Shown one piece after another: positions 49,108 to 63,330 of a stretch of 64,000 nucleotides of DNA. The stretch is from NCBI GenBank assembly GCA_024195265.1, contig JAJLRJ010000009.1, forward strand, positions 16,751,210 through 16,815,209. The letters are read 5' to 3'. Made by a program: the position numbers and the translations under genes. The stretch comes from Dendrophyllia cribrosa (taxonomy: Eukaryota > Cnidaria > Anthozoa > Scleractinia > Dendrophylliidae). Under the pieces are notes generated by a model, which saw only the letters and a program-made list of their open reading frames with translations, searched no databases and was not told the DNA's origin. Within the stretch, counting starts at the first letter, position 1, and each line of letters opens with the position of its first letter.

Positions 49108-49468
49108 TATCTTTAGTCGATAAACAAAGCCGAATTCTAGAAGGAATTTTTTCATTGTGTCTTTGGTCCAGCGAATAGCCATCGAATTTAGTCATCCGGA
49201 TCCGGATCACGTTCAATCACAACTAGCCGAGAAATAACTTATCATAAAATGCAACTTTGTTATTTATAGATCGTTTTCATTTTCGTAAGCAGTTCGTTTT
49301 CTGGCTATGAGAATAACCCCAGAGAAGGATGTTGCAGGGAATGCCAAATAAAAGAAATAAGAAATTTTTGAATACAGATAAATTTTCTCTATAATTACCG
49401 TTAGCGATACATACGTTCAAATGGACAGAGTAGGATCATTCTGTCGCTTTTTGTCTACTAGCTAGATA
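49108..49468 (+). repeat. Left copy of a direct duplication (partner 56936-57630)
   Basis: Both copies start AGTCGATAAACAAAGCCGAA, share AACTAGCCGAGAAATAACTT and ATTTATAGATCGTTTTCATT, and end near GATCATTCTGTCGCTTTTTG. The right copy has about 360 extra bases (57204-57565). The 7.2-kb transposon lies between the copies. Confidence 0.85.
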
Positions 49469-49703
49469 ATATGTCGATACATGTAAAATTCACCTTAGTT
49501 AGTTAATTGGTGCTTCCAATTGGAGACGTTCACTCAACGAGATACACAAATAATCTAATTTAACTCAAGTCATTCTCTTGCTTAAGGCAGGTAGCATTAC
49601 GAAACACTTTGAACTTTCCAAACCGCGTCTTTACAACGACTAATGTCATTGAAAGACGCGGTTTGATAAATTAGTTTTTAATTGCGGTGTGGGATTTAAG
49701 TAT
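49469..49703. other. Spacer with a 15-bp hairpin
   Basis: AAACCGCGTCTTTACAACG..GACGCGGTTT (49619-49666) forms a small hairpin. No gene. Confidence 0.6.
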
Positions 49704-50087
49704 TAGGCCTGTAAACGAATGACCGAAGTTGGACAAAAATGTTAACAAAGCTTTTTCACCTGAAATATATTCCTTGGGGGTAGGTTAGTGCACACATAAA
49801 AGTCCACCCGAATCCAACCATGGCAACCTTGTTTTTACGTGACCGTGGGAAAATCCAAGATGGCCGCCAAATCCAAGATGGCCGCCATGACATAAATCAC
49901 TCTATCTTTGGAAAGGAATGACTGAAAAACACGTATGATATGCCGAATCCCACTAAATCCGACATGCGCATTCGTTTAGTGATGTCTTCAGGGTCATTAG
50001 AGGTCAAGGTCAGGCTAAAAGGTCAAGGTCATGGCAAAAAAACGACAATTTGAAAGGAAAATCGGAGGTGATCATGATAGTCTGCTT
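49704..50087 (+). repeat. Left terminal inverted repeat of the 7.2-kb transposon
   Basis: It aligns in reverse with 56523-56928 through TTGGACAAAAATGTTAAC, CCTTGGGGGTAGGTTAGTGC, GTCCACCCGAATCC, AAGATGGCCGCC and AGGTCAAGGTCAGGC. The copies are clearly similar with scattered substitutions and indels. Confidence 0.85.
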
Positions 50088-50309
50088 ACAACTAAGAATG
50101 AAAACTGTTAAGAGCAAATCCGTGCAAAAATCAAACATTACACGGCAAAGTTAAAAAAACTAAAATTCGCTCTTCTTTTGCATACAGGTAGCCTTTAGTA
50201 AGTATACAATTGCTGTGTAGTTTTTTTCTTGAAAAACTTATTTGTTTCTGGGAAAACGAAAACATTAGTTTTTAGCCCGGGGTCGATTTGACGACACCAA
50301 ACAGGCTTA

Positions 50310-50825
50310 AAATAAGTCATGATTTACTCGACTCGCGCATCAAAACTACTGCGCCAGAAAAAGCTGTCATAGCTCCGGTTTGTTGTACAACTTGTCAGTC
50401 TAAATACCATAATTTCATAAAAATTAGACTAATCTAAGTATTCAAATGAAGTCAAAAGCTTATGGCTGTCCCATTCTCCGTAAAACGGTAGGCGAAAAAC
50501 AGCGATGATTTTGAGCATGTGCCTTTGTTTAGAATTTCGTAATATTATGAATGACAATACTAGAGTTGACGATCTTTCAAAATATGTAAAGTTTAGTTTG
50601 GGGAAATGAATTTGGGATTTTGAAAAATTTGTTGAAAATCGTGAACGAAAGACGTAAAATCACGCCATCTTGTGTGTGCGTGACCAACAACAAAAACAAA
50701 AACGTTTTTCCTTGAGAAATCTTGGCAACTCTGATGCCAAAAACAAAAAAAACAATGAAAATATACAAACCTTAACTTGGATATGACATTTTTGATACGC
50801 GAGTCGAGTGAATCATGACTTATTT
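50310..50825. mobile_element. Nested MITE, AAATAAGTCATGATT ends
   Basis: AAATAAGTCATGATTTACTC at 50310 is inverted at 50798-50825 (GAGTGAATCATGACTTATTT). It sits just inside the left arm of the 7.2-kb transposon. The 114-codon minus frame across it has no domain. Confidence 0.7.
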
Positions 50826-51173
50826 CAACCCTGTCTGCATGTGTTTGGGATTGCCAAATTGTGATCTGAGATGATAACGACTTTCTTCGTTTTTCTCGGA
50901 AACAAATAGATATTTCATGGAAAAAACTGCATTGCATTCATGTACTTACTATAGACTATCTATATGCAAAAGAGGAGCGAATTTGATTTTGTTCAGCTTT
51001 GCCGAAGATTTTCGATTTTGTTTGATTCTTGCACGAATCTGCTCTTAATATTATTGCATTTATAACACTGCAGTTGGTACACTTCTGTTGTCTCGATATT
51101 GCGAAAAGGGAGTGGTACACAGGAAGCCCAATATCTATAGTTAATCGCAAACTTAACATTAAGTACCTATCAT

Positions 51174-53831
51174 TTAATCGTCATCGTTTTCCTCTTCGGT
51201 TTCTACTTGGAGTGTATTCAAGCAAGAGTTGCCCCGGCACTGACCACATGCAGATGTACAATGGAGACCATTTTTGCGGCAGGTGCAATTCCGTTTGTCA
51301 CAGCGTCCACCACAGTTGCATCTGATTGTTCTAAAAAGTGATTCCGGGGCTGCAGATTGAGACATTCGGACTGGCACCAAACCGCCGGATGATTCTTTCC
51401 AGCCCCAGTCTGTCGATGGGAGGTTATTACCTTGCCATGTCTGTACCTGATGATACGTCCTGTAACTGTGGAATGATGCTGCATCCGTTGTCGGTGGAAG
51501 TTTTTCAGGAGGCACATATCCTGCTAAAGTTACAACCTTCTCCTGAAACCTTTCCACTCTAGCTGAATTCAGGGATGGTGCCCGTTGACATCCGTATATT
51601 TCAAGAAGGACCTTCTCTCCCGCTGTTTTCACATCTTTCTTGGAGGATGATGGACTCATGAAAGTGTCGATGGCGTTTCTCAGGGCACTAACCTTCTTCA
51701 GTACCGTCGCTTTACCAATTCCATAAGGCCGTGATGTTGTGTCGCAGCCGCTGATTGCATGAAGAAACAAAAGACCTCGTGATAAGAATGGATCCAGCTT
51801 TTTCTTCAAGATATTGATAGACACTGTTTGTTTGGACATAACCATATAAAGATCGAAATCCTCAGCATTGGCATGGTGTATCAATAACTGGAAGACGTCT
51901 GTATCGTCGGCGATTACAGCAGTTGGCTTTTCAGTTGAAGAGCTACAAGCCATCTTACACATTGTAAAATCGGCATCCTCGTCTGCATGCTCAACCGCGA
52001 TTCCTTCCTTCTGCATCTCCTCGGGTAGTAAGTAGATCAAGGCCTGCTTGTTAGCGCTGTTGTCAAGTAATGCTTTCTTGATCATGGTAAGACGCATTTC
52101 GCCTGAAACGGACACACAGGCACCAACTTCAGTTCCCGGGCTTCAGTCCCTGTTCTCCGACTATGGGCTTCGTCCTTAGTGCTTGGTCCGTGATAACCAT
52201 CAAATATGACCAACGCTTGCCCATAGCTAACCTTCACGTGCCGAACGTACATTTCACAAATCTCAGCGTAGGTCATGTGCTTTGGCCATGCGAACGTATG
52301 CAGTAATCCTCCGCCATCAACAACGTACTGTAAACCAGTTGCGGGAAGGGTTGGGACAATACAAAGAGGTGCAATCTTCAAACGATAATTAATAAGTTCT
52401 GCTTTGTCTCCAGTTCTCATTTGCATGTTATTGTCAAATAATGATGCAGGCAAACAGCACAATTCAAATCTCAGGAGATCGGGTAGAGGGACTTCCCCAA
52501 CGCCCATAACAAGCAGACACTGATAGAGATGCCCGGGATCCATAGTAGACTCAGAATATGATGAGCAAAACCCCAAATTATATAGCAAATCAATAAGATC
52601 ACGATGACCGTACTTGTGGTCAAGTGTGACACTTAAGCCGACTTGTAAGGGTGACAAAAAACGTCTCGGACAGGTTGCGCTCATAATAGCTTGGCCGATA
52701 GATGCGCAGCGCAGTTCTGCAGCTTTGCGTTTGATGATGGTTCTCAAGAGTAAACTCAAAGAGGGTGGCAATAAGGAAAGGTTGTGGTCCATGGACTTCA
52801 TTTCAGATGCTTCTGGATATACGCCTTTATGCTTTTCGGTGCTCTTGATTTCGCTTCTAATATGTTCGCCGACAACTTCAATCATAGTGTTAATGTATGT
52901 CGAGTCTTCAGTCATTCTCGTATGGGTGTCATGGATCATTTGCTTCACATTGGACGATAACGTGACTATGAGCGGATTTTGCATTGATGACGTAATCGAT
53001 ACCCTGTCTCCCTAATGGGCACGTAACTGTCGCTGAAGTGATTTTCTTGGAATATGTATCCTCGTCACCTGCCTGACTTTGCATTATTTCAAAAAGTTCG
53101 TCCAGTGTTATTGTTTCGTCGTCGTTCTTTTCCAAATAATCAATTACTTGTTTAAAAGCATTGTTCTTCCTCTCATCCACAGATCCACTAGGTCTTCCCC
53201 ACTTTATTGGAGGTACTCCATCTTTGGTACAACGGATAGCGTTTCTAAACTAAGATTTCTAGGTGATATAAAATACTGAAAGCATTTCCTATGGTAGGTA
53301 GCCTCCTCCGCTGGCAGATCGTGAATGCATAACATTCGATGAGAGACCGCATCTGCCCACTCATCCACTTGTTTTGTTTTTTTGTCGACGTTCCGCACAT
53401 CTTTTTGTAATCGTTTCTTTAACAGACACAGTCGTTGCACTGCTGTATTCATATTCTTGATTGCTTGGATGCTTTCTAGCCTTGACTTTATCTACTGTTT
53501 TTTTCCGCATAGAAAGCAGTCAGTGCGAAAACTGAATGTCGTTTTATCCGAACGAAGTTTTGGGGCTGAGTCTTTTTCAAGAGCTCTTTTTCTGGTTTGT
53601 GCATACCGTCGTTCATTCAGGTGTGACCTTTTCGGCACTTGATGTGGACGTAAAACCGGTTTCATTTTTGTCATAAACGTAAATTGGGATTGGATTTTCA
53701 GGATACACATTATTATGCTTGACAGAATACTCATTAATTTTATCAAGCCATTTTTGTCCTACACACGAATACTCACTCGAAGGGCACGATAAACCCTCCA
53801 TGCATATCAAACAGACATCTGAGCTGGCCAT
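51174..53831 (-). pseudogene. PIN/XPG-like nuclease plus Tesmin/TSO1-type CXC protein, frame-broken
   Basis: Six minus-strand frames tile one protein. 53831-53613 has a CLIC..C zinc-knuckle start, and 53746-53492 ends FRTDCFLCGKK. 53452-53204 has DEWADAVSHRMLCIHDL..YHRKCFQYF, and 53180-52929 has IDYLEKNDDETITLDEL. 52984-52082 has SIGQAIMSATCPRRFLSPLQ, DLLYNLGFCSSYSE and DGYHGPSTKDEAHSRR. 52115-51174 has VIADDTDVFQLLIHHA, LLFLHAISGCDTTS..GIGKAT, then DWGWK, and a C-terminal CNCGGRCDKRNCTCRKNGLHC. The acidic DDTDV and GCDTTS..GIGKA motifs fit a PIN/FEN1-XPG nuclease fold. The ending is a CXC zinc motif. The family is multi-copy in cnidarians and other invertebrates. Several frameshifts (near 53660, 53480, 53190, 52950 and 52100) make this copy inactive unless some are introns or sequencing errors. 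Confidence 0.75.
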
Positions 53832-55139
53832 AGCAATACACTATTTCACTATGAAAGAAAAGAAAAGAAAACTAATTAAGCTGTCGTTGTTTACTTAAAA
53901 CGAAGACCTCTTTAGAATTTCATGCGAGGTTACCAAGCTACATTTTCACGATGACGAACCTCACTATAGTCTCTGTAAGTTATCACAGATGTCTCTCAAA
54001 TTCCAAAATATTATTAGCAGTAAGTTTAACTCGACTCCGTAGATAAGTTTTAATTCATAAGTTAGCTAAGAAAAGTTTTCTTCTGGTGAAAAAGTTATGG
54101 AAAGAATTTCCATTTCTCTGCTTTCAGAGTATGCTTATCCATCGCCCAGAATGGCGCGACACATCCGGGACTTTCATGCGTGACTCGCGCGAAAATTGAA
54201 AGTCAATCAGGATGCCAGACGCTCAGACAATAAAGAAAATGACCTAAAGACGGCCAACAGCGCGCACGTTTTGCGAGTTTACGAGCTTACTAATTTAGTT
54301 TCACAATAGTTAGCATATGGCTTTTGCAGATGAGACATCAATGGAAAGAATGAGATATTTTCCGATATTTTACCAACAGTGAAACCGGTCGCAAATTTTG
54401 CTCGAATTTGGTCTATTTCAGGGATGTTTTTGTATGGGAAAATATTTCGAGGCCGAATTTTTCATCCCTATAGTGCTCATCTTAAAAGTTAGCATATGGC
54501 TTTGATTGTTTGTTCATTGAAGAAGCCTTATGACAAGTTTCAAGTGAAAATACGGGTTCAAAGTGGTCGCAAAATCCAACTTCCCAACGTTTCTTGCTTT
54601 CCCTCTTCTCGGAGACTCGCATGACAATAGAACGGACTTGCTTTGAAATTCCCGCGAAATTCGAAGCTCCGCCTCCAAAAACAATAGGGCGCACGCCGCC
54701 GCAATTAAGCATTGAAATTGAGGTGATATATAAAACAGCACTTTAAATCTCTAAATCGGGAATTGGTTTGAAAGGGAAATAAAGCAAAATTATAGGTTCG
54801 AGGCTATAACGCTCGTAGCAAACTCTTGAAAATCAGCGCTTTAACGAGAAACATAACGATAACATCATTCAATAACGATGCGTAAAAGCCGGGATGATGT
54901 CTGGCACGCTTTGACATGATGTTCCAAAGTAGATTTTAGCAACTGAATGGATAAAAATATAACTTAACCTTCTATATTCTTTGATCGATTAAAACGGATC
55001 CAAATTTGAATAATTATCTCAACACAAACAATATCGAGTCCCTCGGGGATGAGCCTGCTCGAGGCGGCAGTTTGCATTTTGCTTGTTGTTTTTCCTGATC
55101 TGGGCAGTGTTAACGGTCGTTAACCGGTCGAGTAAAAGA
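53832..55139. other. Non-coding interior of the 7.2-kb transposon
   Basis: It probably holds the promoter side of the minus-strand gene. The phrase GTTAGCATATGGCTTT occurs twice (about 54310 and 54487), suggesting a small local duplication. No RNA gene seen. Confidence 0.4.
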
Positions 55140-55810
55140 ATGGAGCGGTGCCGTATACAAGCGAGTGACCCGTGCATCGCACTCACTAATTGAACAACTT
55201 TAAAAAATACATGTTCTGATGATCGTAAGTCTTTTGAGTCAAATACAAAAAATGTTGCTGCACACGAATTTGTGACATAATGCTTTGTAAAGAGCGCGGC
55301 CGGCGAAGCGAGTCGGTGACCCGACCCATCGCGCTCGCTATTTGAACAACTTTTTAAAATCCCCGTTCTGCGTAAAATTATTTCAGCTAACTCATATAAC
55401 GTTTTGCATCGCTCTCTGAACATCGCGAGTCTATCGAGTCAAATACAAAATATCGCTACACACGAATTTGTGACAAAATGTTTTAATAAGAATTAATAAG
55501 AACGCGAGCAGTGAATTACAAGCGAGTGACCCGCCCATCGCGCTCGCTATTTGAACAACTTTTAAAAACCCTGTTCTGTATAAAATTACTTAATCTAACT
55601 CAGATAACGTTTTGAACATCGCGAGTCTATAAAAAATAACGCTGCACACGAATTTGTGACAAAATGCTTTGTAAAGAGCGCGGCCCGCCTTTAACAAGAA
55701 CGAGAGTAGTGGATTGCAAGTGAGTGACCCGCGCATCGCGCTCTCTATTTGAACAACTTTTTAAAAAACCCTGTTCTGCGTAAAATTACTTCAGCTAACT
55801 CAGAATTGTG
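55140..55810 (+). repeat. Four-copy ~200-bp tandem array near the right arm
   Basis: GTGACCCG..CATCGC.CTC is followed by TTTGAACAACTTT, CCTGTTCTG.TAAAATTA, CACACGAATTTGTGAC and AATG.TTTGTAAAGAGCG. The order repeats with starts near 55156, 55313, 55520 and 55718. Unit length varies (about 157-207 bp). The minus frame 55019-55423 reads through it and is not a gene. Subterminal arrays of this kind are often transposase binding sites. Confidence 0.8.
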
Positions 55811-56522
55811 AAGAGCGAGGCGCTATTGTTAACTTTATCGCACCTTGATATTTACTTCACACTTCCAACGTTTGATTGACAGTAGCTGAATTTTGTGAAG
55901 AGACCCAAGTATTCCCAAAGCTAAATCTGTTGACCAATCACTGCCGACCAGTTATGATCATGCAAATTATTATGCCGCGCGTCACAAAATGGGGCACCGT
56001 AAGTACATGTCGCAAAAGACAATGCCATTCTGGGCGATGCGGAGATTTGAGTCTAACTGCACATTTAAAAACACAAACATTCATTCAAAAAGTTAAAAAG
56101 AAAACAAAATATGCAAGTATTATGTAGCAACCTTAAATATCAGAAAAAAGTGGATGAAAATACGTGCAAATGTAGATCACTCACCTATGACACTCACCAG
56201 CTTGACAAACAATGATGATGTAAAGATAACCGCTGACCAAAGTACAACACGTTCAGTCCCAGTCCACTTTTTGCATCAAATACATATCCTTAATACATTT
56301 GTTCTTGATAAAACTCAAAGCGACGTTTTGAGTTTATTAGTTTGCACGTATCGTGATATTTTTTGGCTTTTGCTTCTTATTTATTTTTCAAAATAATCCT
56401 GACTTGACTCATCAACTGGAGCTCTAAATATCCTTGTACAAAGCTTTAAAAATGATTGTGCTGATTTTCGCCCACTTAACATGATTTATAAATTGATTCT
56501 TTTGTTTTGTTTATTTTTTGCA

Positions 56523-56928
56523 TGCAGACTGTTGCCATCAGATCTGATTCTATTTCTAATTTCCTTTTAAATTGTTGTTTTTTTTTACCATGACCTTGAC
56601 CTTTTAGCCTGACCTTGACCTCTAATGACTCTGGAGACATCACTAAACGAATGAGCATGTCGGATTCAGTGGGATTCGACATATCATGCGTGTTTTTCCG
56701 TCATTCCTTTCCAAAGAAAGAGTGATTTATGTCATGGCGGCCATCTTGGATTTGGTGGCCATCTTGAATTTTCCCACGGTCACGTAAAAACAAGGTTGCC
56801 ATGGTTGGATTCGGGTGGACTTTTATGTGTGCACTAACCTACCCCCAAGGAACATATTCCAGGTGAAAAAGCTTTGTTTACATTTTTGTCCAACCTCAAG
56901 TAAAAAAAAAAATTCGTTTACGGGCCTA
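56523..56928 (-). repeat. Right terminal inverted repeat of the 7.2-kb transposon
   Basis: Partner of 49704-50087. It contains paired GACCTTGACCTTTTAGCC words and CATGGCGGCCATCTTGG, and ends ATTCGTTTACGGGCCTA. A T/A run before the end differs from the left arm. Confidence 0.85.
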
Positions 56929-56935
56929 TATGTTT

Positions 56936-57630
56936 AAGTCGATAAACAAAGCCGAATTCTAGAGGTATTTTGTCATTGTGGCTATGGTCTAGCGAACAGC
57001 CCTCGAATGTAGTCGACTTAACAACTAGCCGAGAAATAACTTATCATAAACTGCAACTTTGTTATTTATAGATCGTTTTCATTTTCGTACGCAGTTTGTT
57101 TTCTGGGTATGAGAGCAACCCCAGAGAAAAGATGTTAAAGCGAATGCCGCAAATAAAAGAAATTAAAAATAAAGCTAAATTTTCTTATTACTGTTTCTGT
57201 TCAGTTCAAAGATTCAAAAGACCACTGATTTGCATCCTCGCTTTAGAAAAGTCTTTTAACTAAGTGAAAAATACTTGTTTTAGTTTCGCACATGGACTGT
57301 CAGCTGCACGGCCAAAAATTAAAAATACTACATCTCCAAAGCAATGTTGCTGATATTATGAAGAACCTGTTGATAGATATGCCGTGCTTTGAATGGTTTG
57401 ATGAAGCCATTGGAGCGTTATGTAATCGGAGGAGTGGAGTTAATGTCCAACCGTACGAGAACTGGCGACAGTCCTACTGATTACTGAAATGACTACGACA
57501 AAATCGTAACCCGCTTAAATAATTATCAACAACGTAGCAATAATAAACAATCGTTAAACTAAACTAGCGAAACATATATTCAAATGGACAGAGTACGATC
57601 ATTCTGTCGCTTTTTGTCTACTAGGTAAAA
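56936..57630 (+). repeat. Right copy of the direct duplication (partner 49108-49468)
   Basis: Same borders as the left copy but with an extra segment (about 57204-57565) that contains a 62-codon ORF and an AATAAA. Either the left copy lost this segment or the right copy gained it. Confidence 0.85.
57292..57480 (+). CDS. Possible terminal exon of an unknown gene
   Basis: The frame reads MDCQLHGQKLKILHLQSNVA... to ...YENWRQSY stop, with a composition like a real protein. A TTGTTTTAG acceptor-like site precedes it at about 57280, and AATAAA at 57545 follows the stop. It is present only in the right copy of the duplication. No family recognised and no upstream exons found; chance ORF remains possible. 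Confidence 0.3.
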   Translation: MDCQLHGQKLKILHLQSNVADIMKNLLIDMPCFEWFDEAIGALCNRRSGVNVQPYENWRQSY

Positions 57631-59936: not shown

Positions 59937-60104
59937 GCTTTACTCCATCCTCGAAGACCCAGGGGCAGTTAGTCGGGGAGGGACGAAGCAAAAACTCGGC
60001 AAAAATCAGCGCGACGAAAGTTTTCAAGAGCGAGCGAACGAGCCCCTGGGTTTCTACACTTACCGAACCAGTTCCACGACCATTTGAAATCCCCGTCTCC
60101 GATT

Positions 60105-60146
60105 GGGCAGAAAATTTCTGGCATTGTATTTTTCTGCCCAATCAGC
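60105..60146. repeat. GATTGGGCAGAAA hairpin inside the MULE arm
   Basis: GATTGGGCAGAAAATTTCTG pairs with ATTTTTCTGCCCAATC. The mirror copy is in the right arm near 63121-63162. It may act as a subterminal protein-binding site; role unknown. Confidence 0.7.
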
Positions 60147-61177
60147 GAGCTGCATCTATCTCGCCATTTTCGTGCCTTCTTACACGAACATTGTTTTTCC
60201 TTGATCGCCATTGCGTTGCTCGTTCAACTGAGGCGGCTCGCTTGGAAAGTTTTTAAAAAAATGTATGGCCTCAAAGGCAAGGATAATCGTGAGATTCAGC
60301 GTGGCCGCATCAAAATCAAACACTCACTGTCACATTCAAATGTATTGTATCCTTTCAACTCGTAAGTTGTTTTTTTGGTAGACGTGGTGGATCCCACGCC
60401 GAAGATACACTTAAAGTTTTCGAAATCTACGCCATGCAGAGTTCTATGAAACCTGAAATATGAATGAATCACTGATCACAAGCCGGAATACTATACGCCA
60501 AAGACTGCAATAGTACGCCGCAGCGGCCTTTGAGACCCACGCCATAAAAAGATACACACGAAGTGGACACTGGCGCTCGAAATCATTATAAAAATTGTTT
60601 GGTTGACCAAAAACAAAATTACCCTGTTTTATTACCGGGCAGTGGATAGCTAATCTCTAACAGAAACTTTCCATGTAAAAGAATATTCCTTTACACGGGC
60701 CACGCGGTTAACGTTCCTGACTTGCTTTTCGTGCGAATTTTAAAAAGAGGTAAGCTTATACATTGTAACTTCAGCTTAAATAAAAAAAAGAATGAATAGT
60801 AACAGCTCTCAAAATGTCTTAGTAATGATTGACCCAGCTCATTATTTATGGGAGGGGGAGGGATGGGTGAGAAAATGGGGGGACCTGAAATTTTAGCCAC
60901 TGTTAGTAGAACTATAGTTAAGACTTTAATAGTTGTTTATTACTATCACAACCGAGACTCATGATCAGTTGGGCTGTATAAAGATTTATTGCAATATACA
61001 AAACCACTGCTACTGAGCTTACCCAGAAACCGGGAGTGGTGCACGTGGGTGGGTTGACTCACTTACAAGGATGACAAGGGACGAACTAATAACTACAAAA
61101 TTCTACTAACAGTTCTTCAACTTCATGTCCATGTAGCAGATCAGGAAAATTCCTTTGGCGAGGGTTACAGATACTAA

Positions 61178-61611
61178 GGGAGGGACCATTAGTTTTTGAC
61201 GGGGGTGTTGGAAAGTTTTGAAATAAATTGTTTGCAGAGGCTATAAACACTGAAATAAATTGTATGCAAGCAAAAAATAAAGAAAAAATTGTTTGCTAGA
61301 AGTATGGCAGTTGGACGGAGACACAAAATAAATTGTTTGCGGCAGGTGCCACATATAAAATTTTTTATTTTTTTTTAATTTTTTATTTCATAATAATCAC
61401 TACTAGATTACAGTTTAGGATATATATTAAAAATAACTAGTAAGTAAAGAAAAGAAAAGCAAAAGACAGTGCTTTGTGTGTTACAAACAAAAGACAAAAA
61501 AGTAAAAGTTACAGCAAAAGTCATTAGAAAAATAGGGCTTGTGGAACACTGCAAACTGTTTGCATGTGAAAATTTTCCAACACCCCCCGTCAAAAAATAA
61601 TGGTCCGTCTC
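61178..61611. mobile_element. Second GGGACGGACC Harbinger-like MITE, interrupted
   Basis: Ends GGGAGGGACCATTAG and GAGACGGACCATTATT (reverse) lie inside TAA duplications (61175-61177, 61612-61614). It matches 17608-17860 throughout but has about 195 extra bases (61360-61553). The extra piece begins with a T-rich run and reads on the minus strand as an A-tailed SINE-like sequence. The MITE lies in the spacer of the 3.4-kb MULE. Confidence 0.8.
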
Positions 61612-61716
61612 TAATTAATACTTTTAACGTCAATCACTAAAACCCTCCAGTTTAATACTGTTACAATCCAGTAATATGTTTAATGATGGGTTAAAACTTT
61701 AAGCAATGTCGTGTAC

Positions 61717-61965
61717 AATCCACCGTAGGAAAAAAGATGGCGGCTGGTACATTTACCCATAATTCTTAGCGCACAAAAACCTTAACAACGTTCATAAAAA
61801 TGTAAAGAAAAGTTATAAAATCTTCAAACCTAGTCTACACATTGTCCTTAGTACTGGAACAAATATTGTAAAAATTGGGCTTTCTTTGTGCCTAATGTGC
61901 TGTGTTAGGTCCGCAAGGTATTGTGGTAAAATGAACAGCCGCCATCTTTTTTCCTACGGTGGATT
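61717..61965. mobile_element. 249-bp MITE, AATCCACCGTAGGAAAAAAG ends
   Basis: AATCCACCGTAGGAAAAAAG with GATGGCGGCTG just inside is perfectly inverted at 61936-61965. No certain target duplication. No ORF. Confidence 0.85.
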
Positions 61966-62085
61966 ATGGCAGTACCAAATAAAGAAATTGAAATTATAAA
62001 TCATGCTCCATGACTGCACTAATAAAAATACTGTGCAAGGCTGTGCTCTTAGAAGAATCATAGAGAGCCCAAATGCTCCTAGCCA

Positions 62086-62230
62086 TAGCCCGTTTCGCGG
62101 ATACGGCAGCCATATTGATTTTGCCCCCAGGGCATCCCATAATGAACATTGAAAACAAAGGAATATATTAATTTAAATGCTCATTATGGGATGCCCTGGG
62201 GGCAGTTTCCCGTATCTGCGAAACGGTCTA
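62086..62230. mobile_element. 145-bp hairpin MITE, TAG(A/C)C.GTTTCGC ends
   Basis: TAGCCCGTTTCGCGGATACG pairs with the right end (reverse: TAGACCGTTTCGCAGATACG). GCCCCCAGGGCATCCCATAA follows in both arms. The loop is about 35 bases. Flanking TA or AT may be the target site. Confidence 0.8.
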
Positions 62231-63330
62231 TGAAATCTGGGGTGCCCCGCTGTTATTGGTACACTGTAGTTATGTTTTCGCTTTTTTATTTAAGACATCA
62301 TCTGTTCAAAATTTTAAAACCCTACTCCATAACAAAAACATTTCCCCCAGGACCCCCCCTTTTGCAGTGGCTAAAATTTCAGGTCCCCCCATTTTCTCAC
62401 CCATCCCTCCCCCTCCCATAAATAATGAGCTGGGTCAATCATTACTAAGACATTTTGAGAGCTGTTACTATTCATTCTTTTTTTTATTTAAGCTGAAGTT
62501 ACAATGTATAAGCTTACCTCTTTTTAAAATTCGCACGAAAAGCAAGTCAGGAACGTTAACCGCGTGGCCCGTGTAAAGGAATATTCCTTTACATGGAAAG
62601 TTTCTGTTAGAAATTAGCTATCCACTGCCCGGTAATAAAACAGGGTAATTTTGTTTTTGGTCAACCAAACAATTTTTATAATGATTTCGAGCGCCAGTGT
62701 CCACTTCGTGTGTATCTTTTTATGGCGTGGGTCTCAAAGGCCGCTGCGGCGTACTATTGCAGTCTTTGGCGTATAGTATTCCGGCTTGTGATCAGTGATT
62801 CATTCATATTTCAGGTTTCATAGAACTCTGCATGGCGTAGATTTCGAAAACTTTAAGTGTATCTTCGGCGTGGGATCCACCACGTCTACCAAAAAAACAA
62901 CTTACGAGTTGAAAGGATACAATACATTTGAATGTGACAGTGAGTGTTTGATTTTGATGCGGCCACGCTGAATCTCACGATTATCCTTGCCTTTGAGGCC
63001 ATACATTTTTTTAAAAACTTTCCAAGCGAGCCGCCTCAGTTGAACGAGCAACGCAATGGCGATCAAGGAAAAACAATGTTCGTGTAAGAAGGCACGAAAA
63101 TGGCGCCATAGATGCAGCTCGCTGATTGGGCAGAAAAATACAATGCCAGAAATTTTCTGCCCAATCGGAGACGGGGATTTCAAATGGTCGTGGAACTGGT
63201 TCGGTAAGTGTAGAAACCCAGGGGCTCGTTCGCTCGCTCTTGAAAACTTTCGTCGCGCTGATTTTTGCCGAGTTTTTACTTCGTCCCTCCCCGACTAACT
63301 GCCCCTGGGTCTCCGAGGATGGCTTTACTC

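Follow-up and report, generated by a model that had tools for sequence, protein, structure and literature searches.

A 64-kb stretch of Dendrophyllia cribrosa DNA (the window, within which all positions of the element are counted) holds a transposon with long terminal inverted repeats (TIRs), very probably a dead, non-autonomous copy of a family whose intact form encodes a single protein of about 1,500 amino acids (aa), in which a probable DDE transposase is joined to a nuclease and a CXC tail. According to this reading, an ancestral copy suffered an internal deletion, its products were spread by transposase made elsewhere and then decayed, and the window copy additionally received two inserts. 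The coordinates of its features are collected in Table 1.

The two TIRs are identical in 337 of 369 aligned columns (91%), with an ungapped core of 318 nt that is 95% complementary. A preliminary description of the window had put them at about 400 bp; the repeats proved to be real, with a length nearer 360 bp, and the TAT duplication that it placed around them was recovered on both sides. With up to three mismatches allowed, the terminal 17-mer, a tip also written TAGGCCYGTAAAC, matched only twice in the window, at 49704-49720 (+) and 56912-56928 (-), a count reached in 1 of 100 shuffled sequences (mean 0.28 matches). Between the repeats lies a single broken gene on the minus strand, scattered over several frames, as had been described.

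The exact 17-base tip was then used to scan the whole genome (627 Mb, 22 contigs), yielding 28 matches as opposed to none for a reversed-pattern control. These resolve into 12 convergent pairs and four lone ends, giving 16 elements, of which the 15 outside the window were retrieved in 17 loci, only the end parts being used for the two longest. The gene is present in all 16 elements, the window copy included, with the main blocks about 95-98% identical, which answers the check originally proposed, namely whether the same TIR family surrounds other copies of the gene. The two ends stand 4.16-4.39 kb apart in eight of the 12 pairs, and 6.0, 7.2 (the window copy), 21.1, and 22.0 kb apart in the remaining four. 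The size of 7.2 kb given in the preliminary description is correct for the present span but is ruled out as the natural size by this spacing and by the two nested inserts, without which the window element measures about 4.4 kb; the natural size is about 4.2-4.4 kb. Target-site duplications of 3 bp were found at nine of the 12 pairs (TAT in the window, TTG at L011, TAA at L012, GTA at L014, TTA at L015, AGG at L016, TTT at L017, TTA at L018/L019, and ATA at L020/L021), duplications of 4 bp with identical flanks at two (CGAG at both L009 and L010), and none at one (L013). L009 and L010 lie 32 kb apart, differ by 0.2%, and are alike over 12 flanking letters on each side; because both have CGAG within identical flanks, they probably represent one insertion event that was copied as a block together with its surroundings.

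Intact forms of the gene were sought by a protein search with a read-through query of the window gene (7,992 candidates scored), which returned at least 44 relatives; among the matches listed, ten are 1,449-1,535 aa long. One of these, P0001 (1535 aa), is 59% identical to the query over the aligned part. Source names attached to the relatives include a spider and a rust fungus, and a rotifer appears among the more distant ones. Three acidic residues (D455, D612, and E927 in P0001 numbering) are invariant in all 13 alignment rows, and the block carrying them would adopt an RNase H-like DDE fold. The nuclease of the relatives matches Exo1, FEN1, and XPG both in fold and in sequence, including the seven acidic metal-binding positions, and the CXC tail occurs in most full-length members; P0041, a protein labelled as from the rust fungus Austropuccinia psidii, combines the DDE part with the nuclease but has no such tail. 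The intact relatives are each one large protein uniting a probable transposase core with a FEN1/XPG-like nuclease. The suggestion that the gene product is a transposase or its accessory survives in the former sense, given that the nuclease sits within the probable transposase polypeptide and is not a separate accessory.

Domain databases were largely silent on this protein. No Pfam domain was found in the 44 database relatives, and six pieces of the window gene gave nothing above the Pfam cut-off. Among 13 members, no Pfam DDE family (DDE_Tnp included) and no helicase family was detected at E ≤ 0.01, while DUF6589 appeared in two of the 13 (best E 5e-5, 22.6 bits vs a cut-off of 27); PIF/Harbinger elements also have a 3-bp duplication, and a distant kinship with them is conceivable. 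Foldseek found nothing at E ≤ 0.001 for the N-terminal half, a PDB sequence search with one window piece was uninformative, and a profile search for distant relatives recovered at least 33 proteins, none labelled DUF6589 among the matches listed.

Set against P0001, the window gene lacks residues ~430-1082, D455, D612, and E927 included, and its reading frame is interrupted at least three times, by breaks or stops. All five nuclease blocks with the seven conserved acidic residues are kept across two frames. The window copy contributes nothing to transposition, because the three residues are missing and the frame is broken. The deletion junction is identical in 15 of the 16 elements (three of them with 5 extra bases there), which argues for one deletion that occurred a single time and whose product then came to lie at many sites. 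The remaining element, L025, was shortened by a different deletion (~373-839) that left part of the DDE block in place; the ancestor therefore had this block. The earlier view of a PIN/XPG-CXC protein as the only gene accordingly holds for the window remnant but not for the family, since the remnant is a deletion derivative and the intact protein adds the probable DDE core.

Less damaged copies exist in the same genome. A search with P0001 (30 of 1,141 candidates scored) uncovered at least nine loci with both halves of the gene, in eight of which open frames of 811 aa and 776-777 aa hold the 3' half and the 5' half, respectively; at the ninth locus, one side is longer and the other is split. 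A stretch bounded by GT...AG, presumably an intron, lies between the two frames, and the nuclease motifs are present in exon 2 of L047. The inverted repeats at the ends of this sister family measure 168 bp and resemble the window TIRs at 76-80%; over 6.7 kb, one copy matches three others with 99.5-99.6% identity. Perfect 3-bp duplications flank eight of the nine copies (TTC, AAC, AAA, ATA, TAA, AAT, TAG, and TTC), one tip of the ninth not being found by exact match. The sister family is probably autonomous, and the TAGTCCAG family may act as a cross-mobiliser of the window family. Two more distant families, represented by one copy each (L050 and L051), are about 35-42% identical to P0001 in their main parts (37.8% and 41.8%, respectively, in the C-terminal part), with TIRs starting TAGTCCAGTC and duplications of TTA (L050) and ATA (L051). 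At 8043-8050 of L051, the flank past the right tip reads ATAGTCCA, in which a further tip-like motif begins after the duplication. TIR ends of the form 5'-TAG(T/G)CC and a 3-bp duplication accompany the gene in all four families examined, and neither of the outcomes named beforehand as refuting the idea, copies of the gene without TIRs or TIRs around unrelated sequence, appeared. The proposal that the gene family is transposon-encoded is therefore borne out by the 16 elements with the window tip and by three further TIR families.

Among known transposons, the closest description is that of the AcademX lineage of the Academ superfamily, reportedly the work of Kapitonov and Jurka and of Kojima in 2020. 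The Academ nuclease is of the XPG type, the Cys-rich zinc finger of Academ is a Cys8 finger, and AcademH elements are long. One source links AcademX to a nuclease and to duplications of 3 or 4 bp, and AcademH to a helicase and to duplications of 9 or 10 bp (PMC10045372), while a second gives curated bivalve Academ elements a mean length of 5,565 bp (PMC10294476). The families described here agree with these accounts of AcademX in their duplications (3 and 4 bp in the window tip family, 3 bp in the sister family and in L050 and L051), in an element-encoded nuclease beside a probable DDE-type transposase gene, and in the length of the elements, the 6.7 kb of the sister family comparing with the bivalve mean. 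The CXC tail is at most a candidate counterpart of the Academ finger. AcademH, placed in the same superfamily in print, differs in its helicase and its longer duplications, and membership in it is ruled out by the duplications of 3-4 bp and the lack of any helicase family in the 13 members at the above threshold. AcademX membership, matched by printed description and not by sequence, is the likeliest assignment. It is improbable that these DDE-XPG transposons instead make up a superfamily of their own, distinct from Academ and yet to be described: this alternative draws on the same descriptive nature of the comparison, on the lack of a Pfam DDE family, and on a best Pfam likeness (DUF6589) that stays below the cut-off, whereas an encoded nuclease and duplications of 3 or 4 bp, both of which lengths occur here, are what has been described for AcademX (PMC10045372).

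The prevalence of the deletion form within the tip family invites two further alternatives, both of which were weighed against the state of the copies. No stop-to-stop frame exceeds 362 aa in any of nine copies examined. Across 15 aligned sequences (the rearranged L013 being omitted), variable sites number 126, 115, and 113 of 827, 827, and 825 at the three codon positions, variants common to two or more copies number 30, 30, and 33, and mean pairwise divergence is 2.6%, with L023 nearest to the window copy (0.5%); this equality between codon positions shows that the copies drift neutrally. KP derivatives of P elements act as repressors, and a derivative protein might likewise have served as a repressor or helper favouring its own spread, as the survival of the N-terminal region, nuclease, and CXC tail and the preponderance of one deletion class could suggest; the equal codon-position variation and the want of an intact frame render this quite unlikely, even if brief selection at an early stage is conceivable. 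A transposase consisting of the XPG-like nuclease and nothing else, with the DDE-less 4.4-kb element as the complete autonomous form, would accord with the commonness of that form and with the intact nuclease motifs of the window copy, but it is very hard to reconcile with the invariant D-D-E block of the intact relatives and the young sister family, with the broken and drifting frames, and with the ancestral block betrayed by L025. Chance flanking, in which an unrelated TIR element surrounds a host gene or the gene of another transposon, can be dismissed, since the gene accompanies every element with the tip and three other TIR families of this genome, even though two nested inserts do sit in the window copy.

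The favoured history of the window family, a deletion derivative of a DDE-nuclease-CXC element, would begin with an ancestral copy that lost its D-D-E block by internal deletion while both TIRs were kept. This copy would have spread to at least a dozen sites, mobilised in trans by transposase made elsewhere, before the copies decayed and the window copy took up its two inserts. A DDE-type core, long TIRs, and a short duplication of fixed length are the signature of cut-and-paste transposition, the mode presumed here. In the intact protein, binding to the TIRs would fall to the winged-helix and zinc-like regions near the N-terminus and to the CXC tail, and the D-D-E core would cut the 3' ends and join them with a stagger of 3 bp. 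Nucleases of the FEN1/Exo1 class cut at junctions of single- and double-stranded DNA and at 5' flaps, and in Tn7, TnsA cuts the 5' strand beside TnsB. By analogy, the XPG-like domain might cut the other (5') strand at the element ends, and such second-strand cutting would account for the nuclease being fused and conserved. A single-chain transposase with two nucleases, the D-D-E core handling the 3' ends and the fused FEN1/Exo1-type nuclease cutting the second strand or trimming flaps in the product, is therefore put forward tentatively, as a possible eukaryotic counterpart in logic to TnsA and TnsB, of which the 4.4-kb derivatives would keep the nuclease half only. The TnsA nuclease has a different fold, and TnsA and TnsB are separate bacterial proteins; homology is not claimed. 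The nuclease shares its fold and its seven acidic positions with the Exo1/FEN1/XPG (Rad2) enzymes, which are known repair nucleases, but at only ~15% identity, and it stands behind a probable transposase and before a CXC tail.

Table 1. Features of the transposon copy in the 64-kb window of Dendrophyllia cribrosa.
Feature	Position	Strand	Remarks
Target-site duplication TAT, left	49701..49703
Left TIR, tip TAGGCCTGTAAACGAAT	49704..50060	+	alignment, tip search
Nested insert 1, 933 bp, imperfect inverted repeats of ~250 bp	50112..51044		TTAA at 50108-50111 and 51045-51048
Gene remnant: N-terminal zinc-binding-like region, helical region, XPG/FEN1-like nuclease, CXC tail; without DDE block	51216..53831	-
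CXC cysteine-rich tail (CNCGGRCDKRNCTC...CGQC)	51216..51320	-	translation, alignment
XPG/FEN1-like nuclease domain	51640..52335	-	limits approximate
Internal-deletion junction	52543..52544	-	common to 15/16 elements
Nested insert 2, ~1.9 kb, ends CATCGCCCAGAATGGC / GCCATTCTGGGCGATG	54140..56040
Right TIR, tip (reverse complement) TAGGCCCGTAAACGAAT	56560..56928	-	alignment, tip search
Target-site duplication TAT, right	56929..56931

The two nested inserts are unrelated to the host element, and blastn matched neither of them to any of the 17 loci that represent the other 15 elements. The inverted repeats of insert 1 begin GAGCARATYCGTGCAA, and by its TTAA alone it could be a non-autonomous element resembling piggyBac or Kolobok. 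Insert 2 has perfect inverted ends of 16 bp, a duplication of at most 1 bp, and three to four direct repeats of ~200 bp in its interior. Beyond the element, the sequence to its right (56929-57627) is a diverged direct repeat (81-94%) of 49108-49464, 8 kb upstream; these repeats were considered as an empty-site paralogue and rejected, the match covering the right side of the site alone. Further along, 59945-63322 forms a near-perfect inverted repeat (arms 59945-60902 and 62365-63322, 958 nt, 99%) with outer tips CCATCCTCG and a direct repeat of CTTTACT (7 bp) or GCTTTACT (8 bp) on each side, and looks like a recent long-TIR element of 3.4 kb.

No paper on the combined DDE-nuclease-CXC layout was found among open-licence PMC papers, and the novelty lies in this anatomy and in the natural deletion series rather than in a new kind of element. 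A transposon origin is hereby given to a widespread, uncharacterised, multi-copy protein family in whose 44 database relatives Pfam finds no domain. Given that deletion derivatives share one genome with young copies that are almost identical and have open frames, the role of a repair-type nuclease fused to a probable transposase becomes directly testable.
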